From Megamonas hypermegale (GTDB lineage Bacteria; Bacillota; Negativicutes; Selenomonadales; Selenomonadaceae), in NCBI RefSeq assembly GCF_900187035.1, contig NZ_LT906446.1, positions 1,364,001 to 1,428,000 of the forward strand: 64,000 nt of DNA. Reading direction: 5' to 3'. The notes beneath the pieces were generated by a model, which was given only the letters and a program-made list of their open reading frames with translations, ran no database searches and had not been told where the DNA came from. Both the position numbers and the translations under genes were made by a program. Positions 16,506 through 55,241 of this stretch are shown here, one piece after another. Numbering within the stretch: the first letter of the stretch is position 1; each line of letters begins with the position of its first letter.

Positions 16506-16551
16506 ATAAAGCTCTTGAATTTATAAATATCCATTTATAAACTAAACCAAT

Positions 16552-16654
16552 CTTTTCTCATCCAGACTATACTGTCGGCTTTGGAATTTCACCAAATCAT
16601 GCATCATGCTCGCGGGCTATACCGCCGGTAGGGATTTGCACCCTGCCCCAAAGA
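16552..16654 (-). promoter_or_regulatory. FMN riboswitch (RFN element)
   Basis: The minus strand carries the conserved RFN blocks in order: CTTTGGGGCAGGGTG at the 5' end, then AATCCCTACCGGCGGTA, AGCCCGCGAGC, TTGGTGAAATTCCAAAGCCGAC and GTCTGGATGAGA at the 3' end. All conserved pairings appear present. It lies between a good promoter and the terminator before ribD. Confidence 0.96.
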
Positions 16655-16684
16655 CTGTCCATATTGATTTTTTTCACTAAACAC

Positions 16685-30663: not shown

Positions 30664-33600
30664 TTATTTATCAAAATCATCATCTGTATCAAAATTACCT
30701 AAATGAGCGATAATGTCATCATCATCCATGTCATTATCTGCATCATTATTATTATCAGTTGTGTAATCATCATCAACTGTATTTTCATTGGAAACTTCGT
30801 CTGTATTAACAGCTTGTCCATATGATTCTTTAGCAGCTGTAGCATCCATACCAAGTTCTTTTGCTGTTTCTTCATTATTGATATCATCATCAGTATCGTT
30901 AATCATGATTTCTTGTGCATCTTCTGAAAGCACTTTGATATCAAGACCAATACTTTGTAATTCTTTAATCAATACTTTGAAGGATTCAGGTACACCTGGT
31001 TCTGGAATGTTTTCACCTTTAACGATGGCTTCATAAGTTTTTACACGACCAACAACATCATCGGATTTAACTGTCAATATTTCTTGAAGTGTATAAGCTG
31101 CGCCATATGCTTCAAGTGCCCAAACTTCCATTTCCCCGAAACGCTGACCACCGAACTGAGCTTTACCACCTAATGGTTGCTGAGTTACAAGTGAGTATGG
31201 GCCTGTGGAACGTGCATGGATTTTATCATCAACGAGATGATGTAATTTAAGCATATACACGCAACCAACAGTAACTGGATTTTCAAATGGTTCACCAGTA
31301 CGTCCATCATATAAAATAGTTTTACCATTTTCGGAGAAACCAGAAGCTTTGAGTGTTTCAAATACTTCATCACCTTTAGCACCATCGAATACTGGTGTTG
31401 CGATGTGAATACCAGCAACATCTGGTTTTGGCATTCCATATTTATCAAAATCATAGCCAATAGCACGCAAACGTTTTTCAACTGTTGGATCGCCAGCTTT
31501 AATCTGCATACCGAGTTCACGAACTGCCATACCAAGATGAGTTTCGAGAACCTGACCGATATTCATACGAGAAGGCACGCCTAATGGGTTGAGCACGATA
31601 TTAACTGGTGTACCATCTGGTAAGAATGGCATATCTTCTTCACGCATAACACGGGAAACAACCCCTTTGTTACCATGACGACCAGCCATTTTATCGCCGA
31701 CAGAAATCTTACGTTTCTGAGCAATATATACACGAACGAGTTCGTTTACACCAGCTGGCAATTCATCATTATGAGCGCGCGTAAAGATTTTTACATCGAC
31801 AATGCGTCCAGATTCACCGTGTGGTACACGAAGAGATGTATCACGAACTTCACGTGCTTTTTCACCGAAAATAGCACGAAGTAATCTTTCTTCTGCCGTG
31901 AGTTCTGTTTCACCTTTTGGTGTAACTTTACCAACTAAGATATCACCTGCACGAACTTCTGCACCGATACGAATAATACCATCAGCATCGAGGTCTTTAA
32001 GCGCATCTTCTGCTACGTTTGGAATGTCCTGAGTGATTTCTTCTGGTCCGAGTTTTGTATCACGAGCGGAGCATTCATATTCTTCAATATGAATGGAAGT
32101 ATATATATCTTCTTTTACAAGTTTTTCACTGAGCAAAATAGCGTCTTCGTAGTTATAACCTTCCCATGGCATATAAGCTACGATTACGTTATAACCAAGT
32201 GCAAGTTCACCATGGTCTGTTGCTGGACCGTCTGCAATTGGTTCTTTTGCTTCTACATGGTCGCCTTTATAAACAATTGGCACCTGATTTATGCAAGTTC
32301 CTTGGTTGGAACGCATGTATTTTTGTAATTTATAATGGTCGATTTCGCCTGTTTCATCAGCGCGAACTTCGATAAAGTCAGCTGTAGCACGTACAACTTC
32401 ACCTGCATGTTTAGCAAGTATCATAACACCGGAGTCACATGCTGCTTTATATTCCATACCAGTACCAACGAGTGGAGCCTGTGTTCTGAAAAGTGGAACA
32501 GCCTGACGTTGCATGTTCGCACCCATGAGTGCACGGTTCGCGTCATCGTTTTCGAGGAATGGTATCATAGCTGTTGCGATGGATACGATTTGTTTTGGCG
32601 AAACGTCCATGTAATCAACGCTGTTAGCATCAACAAGCATTGTTTCTTCATGAACACGCGCTGTTACACGGCTAGCTTTAAACCAGTTGTTTTCATCAAG
32701 TGGTTCATTGGCTTGTGCAATTACTAAATCGTCTTCTTCATCGGCTGTTAAATAACGAACTTCATTTGTTACAACTTTATTTACTTTATCAACTTTACGA
32801 TATGGAGTTTCCATAAAGCCAAATTCATTGATACGAGCATAAGTTGCAAGTGAACCGATAAGACCGATGTTTGGACCTTCTGGTGTTTCAATAGGACACA
32901 TACGACCGTAGTGAGAGTTGTGTACGTCACGTACTTCGAACCCTGCACGTTCACGGCTAAGACCACCAGGACCAAGTGCGGATAAACGACGTTTATGTGT
33001 AAGTTCGCTAAGTGGATTGTTTTGGTCCATAAACTGAGATAACTGGCTAGAACCAAAGAATTCTTTGATTGCAGCTACAACAGGACGAATATTTACAAGT
33101 GCTTGTGCTGTAATAACATCATTATCCTGTGTATTCATACGTTCTCTGATTACACGTTCCATACGGGAAAGACCAATACGGAATTGATTTTGTAAAAGTT
33201 CTCCAACAGAACGTATACGACGGTTACCTAAATGGTCGATATCATCTTTATGACCATGACCATCCATCAAATTTAATAAATAGCTTATGGAAGCAATAAT
33301 ATCATTAACAGTAATCGTACGATGACTATATGGTAAAGTACGTGAACAAATCATCTTAATACGATTATCATTTTTATCTTTAATATAAACAATAGCTGGT
33401 TCGTCTTCTCCAAAAATTGCAGCTTCCTGTTCTACAGTAATATTTTCTACCATAGAAGATTCTATAATTACATCGGCAGGAACAAGAACTTCACCTGTTT
33501 CTTTATCAACAAGTGGCTCAGCTAATTTTTTACCTAAAATACGACGTTTCCAACCCAATTTTTTAGTAAGTTTATAACGACCTACTGTAGCTAAATCATA

Positions 33601-34386
33601 ACGTTTTGGGTCAAATAAGAGTTGCTCTAAAAGTTGTTTAGCATTATCTACTGTTGGCGGGTCACCTGGACGCTGTCTTTTATAGATTTCAACTAAACCT
33701 TCTTCTTTTGTTACTGTAGTATCACGGTCAATAGTGTTTCTAATGCGTTCATCATTATCAAATAAAGACAAAATAGCATCATTTGTACCATAACCCAAAG
33801 CACGAATTAATACTGTAGCTGGCAACTTACGATTGCGGTCAAGGCGAACAGAAATAACATCATTTAAATCTGTTTCAAACTCTATCCATGCACCGCGGTT
33901 AGGAATAACCGTAGTATTATAAAGTCTTTTTCCTGTAGGGTCTATATTTTCACTATAATAAGCCCCTGGTGAACGAACGAGCTGACTTACAATAACACGT
34001 TCTGCACCATTGATAATGAATGTACCTGTTTCTGTCATGAGTGGGAAATCACCCATGAAAAGTTCCTGTTTCTTTACTTCTCCGGTATCATTGTTAACCA
34101 GGCACACCTTAACACGTAAAGGCGCAGCGTAAGTAACATCACGTTCTTTACATTCATCAATATCATATTTTGGTTTTCCTAAAGAAAAACCTTCAAACGA
34201 CAAAGAAAGATTTCCAGTAAATCCCTGAATAGGAGAAATATCATGGAAAATTTCCTGTAAGCCTTCCTTCATAAACCAATCATAAGAATTTCTCTGGATA
34301 TCCAGAAGATGAGGCATATCCATAACCTCTTTGATTTTGGCATAGCTATACCTGGTCCGTTTACCAACTGAGACAGGATTGAACAT
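30664..34386 (-). CDS. rpoB: RNA polymerase subunit beta
   Basis: Second catalytic subunit of RNA polymerase, target of rifamycins. The ATG at 34386 follows GAGGGGTG by 9 nt, giving 1240 residues starting [12 protein letters not shown]. An upstream GTG abuts the SD. The rifampicin pocket ([20 protein letters not shown] then [17 protein letters not shown]) is of the sensitive consensus type. [13 protein letters not shown] and the C-terminal [24 protein letters not shown] are intact. Beyond the normal end there is a tail of about 75 residues rich in Asp, Asn and Glu. It is not preceded by rplJL here. Instead it has its own promoter and long leader. Confidence 0.97.
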
Positions 34387-34472
34387 TAAAATCTTCACCC
34401 CTCAAACCGAATTGAAACTAATTAAAATATGTGAATGTTGTATAAGAAATATCTTCTATTAACGCTAAAAAG

Positions 34473-34503
34473 GCAAGGCACTTTTTCTTTTTAAAGACCT
34501 TGC
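34473..34503 (-). terminator. Terminator-like hairpin in the rpoB leader (possible attenuator)
   Basis: GCAAGG / CCTTGC with a further weak inner stem (G-U and A-U pairs, one mismatch), followed on the minus strand by CTTTTTAGCG. It begins 1 nt after the stop codon of the 7-codon frame at 34505-34528 and lies about 90 nt before rpoB. Confidence 0.55.
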
Positions 34504-34504
34504 T

Positions 34505-34528
34505 TTATAATTGCCAAAGATATTCCAT
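34505..34528 (-). CDS. Possible 7-residue leader peptide of rpoB
   Basis: ATG at 34528 with GAGGTG 6 nt upstream encodes MEYLWQL and then TAA. An overlapping frame from ATG at 34542 to TAG at 34465 (25 residues, very basic, SD AGGAG at short spacing) would be read through the hairpin. Either one could couple translation to the hairpin at 34473-34503. The support is SD quality and position only, since so short a frame has no coding statistics. Confidence 0.3.
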   Translation of the reverse strand: MEYLWQL

Positions 34529-34744
34529 TTTGTACACCTCATTCACTCCTAAAAATATATAAAGTCATAGAATTAAATCTACAACATTAATCAAGGATAT
34601 TTACTTGATGACATACTTTTTTGCTGGGCTTATGTCCATCCCCAAAGATTATTTTAACACAATAATCTAATAAAAAACATATAGTTTTTTGCTTCTGTAC
34701 AAAGACTCGTCTTAGCTAATTCTTCATACGTCTGGTAATAAAAA

Positions 34745-34773
34745 ATTCTATCAAAAAAAATCAAATTTGTCAA
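34745..34773 (-). promoter_or_regulatory. Promoter of rpoBC
   Basis: TTGACA (34768-34773), 17-nt spacer, TAGAAT (34745-34750). Strong sigma-A type, just downstream of the transporter terminator. Confidence 0.9.
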
Positions 34774-34783
34774 CCTAAAAAAC

Positions 34784-34808
34784 ATAGCTCAGATATATTC
34801 TGAGCTAT
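34784..34808 (-). terminator. Terminator after the amino-acid ABC operon
   Basis: ATAGCTCAGA / TCTGAGCTAT, 10-bp stem and 5-nt loop, followed by GTTTTTTAGG on the minus strand. Confidence 0.9.
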
Positions 34809-55094: not shown

Positions 55095-55241
55095 ACAGCT
55101 TCTCAGGTAAGAAGACGGTACTTAGGCGCCCTCACGGCACATGAAGATTATCACTTACCGTTGCTCCCTTCCGGACCTGGCGGGGTTCATGAGTCTCCAT
55201 TGCGCGAGACCCAAATACCGCCGTCTTACATGAGAAACTGT
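55095..55241 (-). ncRNA. ffs: Signal recognition particle RNA (4.5S-type)
   Basis: The minus strand has the SRP core AGGTCCGGAAGGGAGCAACG with its GGAA tetraloop, asymmetric loop and paired CCCCGCC / GGGCGCC surroundings. The ends pair as one long rod (ACAGTTTCTCA... with ...TGAGAAGCTGT). At about 147 nt it is a single-hairpin form without a recognisable Alu domain. The run TTTTTTTG after the 3' end is the likely terminator. It stands between a good promoter and dnaX, an arrangement common in Firmicutes. Confidence 0.95.

Follow-up and report, generated by a model that had tools for sequence, protein, structure and literature searches.

The rpoB leader of Megamonas hypermegale contains a short hairpin with arms of the form GCRAGG and CCUUGC that recurs ahead of rpoB in many families of the Bacillota, and this recurrence, which is seen at the level of sequence, points to a shared, uncatalogued control element for RNA polymerase synthesis. 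In our view it is best explained as a cis-acting hairpin that is recognised by a factor and controls rpoBC, and that would serve as a pause site or partial terminator in the Negativicutes; we give this reading about an even chance (a probability of around 0.5).

The rpoB locus and its leader

The features considered are listed below with their positions in the window, i.e. the whole stretch of 64,000 nucleotides that was analysed, in the order in which they are met on the way to rpoB.

34784..34808, either strand: terminator-like site, bidirectional, separating the ABC-transporter genes upstream from the rpoB promoter (terminator scan)
34745..34773, minus strand: rpoB promoter, TTGACA-17-TAGAAT (promoter scan; layout alike in the congener G038)
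34729..34739, minus strand: conserved start region ATTACCAGACG (ATTACCGGACG in G038)
34516..34546, minus strand: 5' strand of a predicted outer helix, with GTGAATG, GTGTA and GGAATATCTTT (fold prediction)
34465..34542, minus strand: 25-codon basic frame MRCTKWNIFGNYKARSLKRKSALPF (not conserved; frame shifted in G038)
34505..34528, minus strand: 7-codon frame MEYLWQL (not conserved; ATG missing in G038)
34473..34503, minus strand: conserved hairpin with arms GCAAGGU (34503-34497) and GCCUUGC (34479-34473) (conservation; one place in the genome)
34467..34472, minus strand: U-tract CUUUUU after the hairpin (T-tract score 2.3)
34431..34455, minus strand: 3' strand of the predicted outer helix (fold prediction)
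34395..34403, minus strand: Shine-Dalgarno sequence of rpoB, GAGGGGTGA (similar sequence precedes rpoB in relatives)
30664..34386, minus strand: rpoB (ATG at 34386 chosen by comparison with relatives)

The rpoB promoter combines a -35 element TTGACA (34773-34768) and a -10 element TAGAAT (34750-34745) over a 17-nt spacer, agrees with the consensus at 11 of 12 positions and has a TG preceding the -10 element. The promoter scan by itself performs at chance level (2 sites versus 3.1 expected). The same layout is repeated in the nearest relative (G038; RpoB N-terminus 95% identical), the sole genome of the same genus among those compared, where TTGACG-17-TATAAT likewise leads to the start region ATTACC(A/G)GACG, and we infer that transcription of rpoB starts near 34738. 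The RpoB N-terminus is 79-82% identical to that of Megamonas sp. UBA1796, Propionispira and Pectinatus. The list of open reading frames places the start of rpoB at a GTG at 34398, upstream of the ATG that we prefer, and counted from the promoter start region to this ATG the leader spans around 350 nt. A first-pass annotation, made from the letters of the window only, had proposed a near-consensus promoter of its own for rpoB, a leader of this length and a separation of rpoBC from rplJL. The former two were borne out, and the separation was confirmed for rplL, which is located at 1,530,002 in the same genome, around 132 kb from rpoB.

The hairpin, which the same annotation had described as terminator-like and followed by a T-run, is indeed present at 34503-34473 with CTTTTT directly behind it, so that a G+C-rich stem and a direct U-tract, the usual signature of an intrinsic terminator or attenuator, are both found in the window. 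Its predicted folding energy is -11.9 kcal/mol. As a folded piece of 56 nt it is unremarkable by itself (z -1.27; 23 of 200 shuffles fold equally well), and a simple terminator scan, which considers only bulge-free stems with loops of 3-8 nt, did not report it; the whole leader folds better than its shuffles (z -3.25; 0 of 100). Within its own genome the pattern GCAAGG-N8..24-CCTTGC has a single site, at this hairpin. Judged by position, the hairpin lies upstream of the ribosome-binding site of rpoB and, in both the window and G038, downstream of the rpoB promoter.

Conservation within the Negativicutes

From the Negativicutes 153 upstream regions of rpoB were collected, 138 of them non-redundant. 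A relaxed pattern applied over 450 nt, run without a shuffle control, recovered the hairpin in 115 of the 138 leaders, and the form GCAAGG..CCUUG(C/U) in 90 of the 138. A strict finder, requiring a match of at least 10 of the 12 letters of GCAAGG/CCTTGC, full pairing and a T-rich tail, was positive for 104 of the 138, as compared to 24 of 1240 shuffled leaders with a finder that omits the pairing requirement, which excludes chance. Among 80 loci that were fetched irrespective of the hairpin, 55 of the 72 non-redundant ones carried it; in this hairpin-blind set three loci with a poor RpoB N-terminus match (L149, L187 and L190) were kept as misses. Likewise, L174 was counted as a miss with a visible, shorter GCAAG..CUUGC stem, and L115, whose hairpin is located 362 nt upstream of rpoB and thus outside the 330 nt covered by the strict finder, is a miss in the strict search and not in the relaxed one.

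The 23 leaders (of 138) that lack the hairpin include 15 from the family of M. hypermegale itself, spread over the genera g2, g5, g10, g11, g13, g14, g27 and g29 (matched by hand). This distribution suggests that the hairpin was lost repeatedly, in several genera of the family, and retained in others. Leaders of the family without the hairpin can be inspected at L016, L180, L188, L189, L191, L193, L194, L203, L205 and L207-L209.

Fifty of the loci carry, 90 nt or more further upstream, another terminator-like hairpin (presumably the one of rplL in many cases). In these loci the rpoB stem occurs in 6 versions with a mean pairwise identity of 0.94, and the upstream hairpin in 41 versions with an identity of 0.32. 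The rpoB stems had been picked for similarity, so the value of 0.94 is inflated; this does not affect the proportion of leaders that pass. The GCAAGG pattern was rejected as a marker exclusive to rpoB, since 139 of 160 Negativicutes genomes contain matches, often several.

The hairpin outside the Negativicutes

To this set we added 40 upstream regions from other Bacillota families, taken from 116 genomes outside the Negativicutes; the sample consists mostly of best-scoring RpoB matches and is therefore biased toward close relatives. The sequence GCRAGG..CCUUGC was found within 330 nt of rpoB in 25 of the 40 leaders, versus 4 of 8000 dinucleotide shuffles, and the third letter of the stem was a G (GCGAGG), which can pair, as G-U, in the sense RNA only, in 24 of these 25. 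The stem form that would pair in the antisense RNA only was seen in 0 of the 40. A stricter finder retained 21 of the 40, L252 among them being doubtful.

The pattern GCGAGG-N4..34-CCTTGCTTT, which was chosen after inspection of these 40 leaders, gave 55 matches in a whole-genome search of 119 genomes, as compared to 15 for the same pattern written backward. Forty of the 55, in 40 genomes, are located 36-179 nt upstream of rpoB and on the rpoB strand, the other 15 elsewhere; 24 of these 40 genomes are among the 40 whose leaders had been examined earlier and 16 come from the 76 new ones. As judged from this search, the GCGAGG form is largely specific for rpoB. For a search across the phylum, the covariance model R1, built on the short hairpin, was rejected as unspecific: it matched in 57 of 299 genomes, with many matches away from rpoB.

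Selection acts on the sense RNA

An alignment of 60 leaders, selected for the presence of the hairpin, shows pairing in 414 of 419 stem cells (98.8%) and no variation in three of the seven stem pairs, so that the stem itself displays almost no covariation. Within the same alignment 47 stem cells are G-U pairs; the corresponding bases of the antisense RNA would not pair. Such pairs are valid in the sense RNA only and show that selection acts on the hairpin as sense RNA. The loop is free to change: the distance between the six-letter arms ranges from 12 to 26 nt in 62 Negativicutes leaders and from 6 to 22 nt in 25 others, which argues against a DNA operator. The 62 leaders, to which we return below, are a diverse subset of 113 hairpin-bearing ones with flanks that share less than 35% of their 6-mers. 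Taken on sequence grounds, what is kept is the stem sequence, with a varying loop and selection on the sense-strand RNA.

The U-tract and proposed recognition of the stem

The tail that follows the stem differs between the two sets. A T-run of at least 5 is present in 48 of the 62 diverse Negativicutes leaders (for which the finder had demanded a T-rich tail), and the median T-tract score of these leaders is 3.68, versus 2.3 in the window. Outside the Negativicutes none of the 25 carriers has such a run (0 of 25); there the hairpin is followed by 3-4 U, and these residues are able to pair with preceding A residues. Considering this short, pairable run, efficient intrinsic termination seems unlikely outside the Negativicutes. 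The common denominator of the carriers is the stem and not the U-tract, and since the former is shared and the latter is not, we favour a reading in which a factor would recognise the stem.

According to this favoured reading, the rpoBC mRNA leader of many Bacillota would contain an old cis-acting RNA element, of which the hairpin of M. hypermegale would be one copy. The hairpin would form as the leader is being transcribed, and a trans-acting factor would read its stem; the likeliest candidate is the transcription machinery, i.e. RNA polymerase together with NusA or NusG. In that case passage through the leader, and hence the synthesis of beta and beta', would track the supply of polymerase. 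In the Negativicutes, including the window, the U-tract would turn the hairpin into a pause site or a partial intrinsic terminator. In the other carriers the U-tract is probably too short for this, and the function common to all would lie in recognition by a factor, in pausing or in the handling of the RNA rather than in termination as such. A more sweeping version holds that the GC(A/G)AGG..CCUUGC hairpin is ancient, is read at its stem by the transcription machinery and constitutes a general feedback circuit for beta/beta' outside the E. coli lineage, to which the Negativicutes added a longer U-tract that made it a pause site or terminator; we offer this version tentatively and regard it as rather doubtful in its full extent. 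If true, it would mean that the Negativicutes and many other Bacillota families share a feedback circuit for the RNA polymerase subunits outside that lineage. The fixed stem would in any case offer a handle for identifying the factor that reads the hairpin, and its six paired letters, in which sequence and structure can be separated by compensatory mutation, present a precise target for the study of rpoBC feedback.

A possible element for RNA processing

A possible, less probable alternative is that the hairpin, perhaps together with an enclosing helix, is a site at which the rpoBC mRNA is bound or cleaved (e.g. by RNase III), so that the message is shaped or protected and transcription does not end prematurely. 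The U run of at most 4 outside the Negativicutes, pairable with upstream A residues, is in line with this, and for E. coli both attenuation and processing of the rpoBC leader RNA were reportedly described by Barry et al. in 1980. Further support comes from the flanks of the hairpin. When 25 leaders were folded individually, many were predicted to form a long helix around the hairpin, and over the 62 leaders (an only partly independent set) cognate flanks pair better than exchanged ones (-27.4 versus -22.6 kcal/mol; Wilcoxon p 1.6e-7). Consensus folding with RNAalifold drew the enclosing helix in two sets of family leaders, for one set of 12 (25 pairs including the hairpin, 2 two-sided changes, covariation -0.73) and for another 7 (32 pairs, 10 two-sided changes, covariation +0.6, which is unfavourable); for 15 Acidaminococcales-type leaders the outer helix was not drawn, though the individual folds show it. 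These folds took 12 of 15, 7 of 9 and 15 of 15 prepared sequences, respectively, and the Veillonella-type set was left out; the labels Sporomusales-type and Acidaminococcales-type are our own for part of the genomes. Against processing stands the weakness of the outer helix in part of the leaders: z lies below -2 in only 6 of 62 and is -1.17 in the window. Moreover, most hairpin-bearing Negativicutes leaders have retained the U-tract, and RNase III usually does not require an invariant stem sequence.

A plain terminator as an improbable reading

That the hairpin is a plain intrinsic terminator or insulator, fixing the level of rpoBC transcription, is improbable. The stem-loop with its T-run in the Negativicutes is what one would expect of such a device, but the invariance of the rpoB stem is at odds with the free drift of the terminator-like hairpin further upstream, and the U-tract is short outside the Negativicutes. 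In addition, the hairpin of the window is situated downstream of the rpoB promoter, and should thus be more than a stop for transcription arriving from upstream.

Short reading frames and alternative pairing

The first-pass annotation had further read the leader as a case of translation-coupled attenuation, in which ribosomes on a 7-codon and a 25-codon frame would decide on the formation of the hairpin. The sequence elements are real: in the window a Shine-Dalgarno sequence precedes MEYLWQL, the stop of which ends 1 nt before the hairpin, and the overlapping basic frame of 25 codons extends from 34542 to 34465. Their coupling to attenuation did not hold. Where the window has AAAATGGAATATC, G038 has AAAGGAATATC, which lacks the ATG and shifts both frames. 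A Shine-Dalgarno sequence with a start and at least 4 codons ending near the hairpin was found in 9 of the 62 diverse leaders, versus 5.8 expected from shuffled flanks, i.e. such frames are not enriched, and the peptides encoded in the nine are unrelated. Comparison of the leaders, which had been suggested as a check, thus gave a divided answer: the hairpin is conserved (115 of 138), and the frames and peptide are not. A conserved short frame with a Shine-Dalgarno sequence ahead of the hairpin was found neither in G038 nor as a trend in the 62 leaders, and the leader-peptide reading was rejected on these two grounds. In its favour, an open frame that starts from a similarly placed ATG is seen by eye in four Pectinatus loci (L005-L008) and their congener L092.

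Alternative pairing, the other ingredient of attenuation, was not enriched either. For neither arm of the hairpin was competing pairing in excess over the 62 Negativicutes and 25 other leaders, and in the latter it was slightly below that of the shuffles. The same holds for an antiterminator pairing that GCAGG- or CAAGG-like copies further upstream in certain lineages had suggested and that was rejected. As a classical attenuator needs competing pairing, it is not supported here. Taken together, translation-coupled attenuation is very improbable, and the short reading frames are incidental.

The conservation of the stretch with the Shine-Dalgarno-like bases may have a structural reason. In the predicted fold of the window these bases and ATGGAATATCTT are located in or beside the 5' strand of the outer helix, an unpaired part of which holds the 2-nt difference between the window and G038. 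The predicted fold of G038 has a local hairpin of this stretch, without the outer helix of the window.

Finally, a palindrome that acts at the DNA level, e.g. an operator, is the least probable reading of all: the arms do form an inverted repeat, but their wide range of spacing, the G-U changes that preserve pairing in the sense RNA only, and a promoter-like site upstream of the hairpin in 83 of 87 leaders (loose pattern, without control) stand against it.

Relation to known rpoB leaders

In E. coli, as described in passages of two reports, the rplL-rpoB attenuator uncouples rpoBC from the ribosomal protein genes, and readthrough of this attenuator accounts for the response to rifampicin (PMC4670729, PMC6181997); a passage in the former calls the control of rpoBC complex and, in 2015, still incompletely understood (PMC4670729). 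The likeness to the element described here is that of an RNA element before rpoB. The E. coli interval contains a different hairpin, GGCTGGTGAC..GTCACCAGCC followed by T5, and, by eye, no GCRAGG hairpin; moreover, the hairpin of the window follows a dedicated rpoB promoter, and the stem sequence of the GCRAGG hairpin is fixed across families. The Lacto-rpoB motif is likewise located in the rpoB leader. A candidate structured RNA named for rpoB, it is listed for the Lactobacillales (RF01709; PMC2864571); its model had no match above the gathering score in 40 Negativicutes and 199 Bacillota genomes, with Lactococcus lactis being detected as positive control. Another phylum, the cyanobacteria, has a conserved leader of the rpoBC operon (cluster 245), which the study that described it compares with the attenuator of E. 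coli (PMC1242208); it resembles the present element by description. Leader attenuation of rplJL in B. subtilis (PMC4538822) concerns the neighbouring operon: the L10 leader (RF00557) was found in 7 of 16 loci searched, around 1.3 kb upstream of rpoB, and is distinct from the rpoB hairpin.

The models of Rfam 15 gave no hit above the gathering score in the rpoB leader of the window, in the 16 loci, or in 20 leaders that were searched at a permissive threshold, where the top score was that of Hrs10 (36.9 bits versus a cut-off of 108, in L165). Nothing that we recognised as the GCRAGG..CCUUGC hairpin of rpoB appeared in the titles and short passages, mainly open-access, that a shallow literature search covered. 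A short element with a fixed stem is a hallmark of the rpoB leader in many families of the Bacillota, and none of the leaders tested has an Rfam match.

Further conserved elements

Several leaders contain additional conserved stretches. Five Acidaminococcales-type leaders (L010, L012, L145, L150 and L019) possess a second conserved hairpin upstream of the rpoB hairpin, with the loop AGUGGUU and a stem that varies by lineage (GUUC/GAAC, CUC/GGG); it has no Rfam match over the cut-off. In Sporomusales-type leaders (L112, L114, L116-L120, L122-L124, L129, L160-L164, L168 and L174) a strongly conserved block resembling GGCAGGAAAUAGUAAUAUAAUGGAGGAUGAAA, mostly followed by a UUUCAUC arm, precedes the GCAAGG hairpin. 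A purine-rich block like GGnAAGAAUAGGnAGAUAAGG was seen by eye upstream of the GCGAGG hairpin in L234, L235, L237, L240, L242, L247 and L255. The label Acholeplasmataceae of the MAG contigs L012 and L018 looks wrong, as their counterpart genomes (G297 and G309) are placed in the Negativicutes. Elsewhere in the window, Rfam models over the cut-off identify an FMN riboswitch (16546-16659) and a bacterial small SRP RNA (55117-55216), both on the minus strand.
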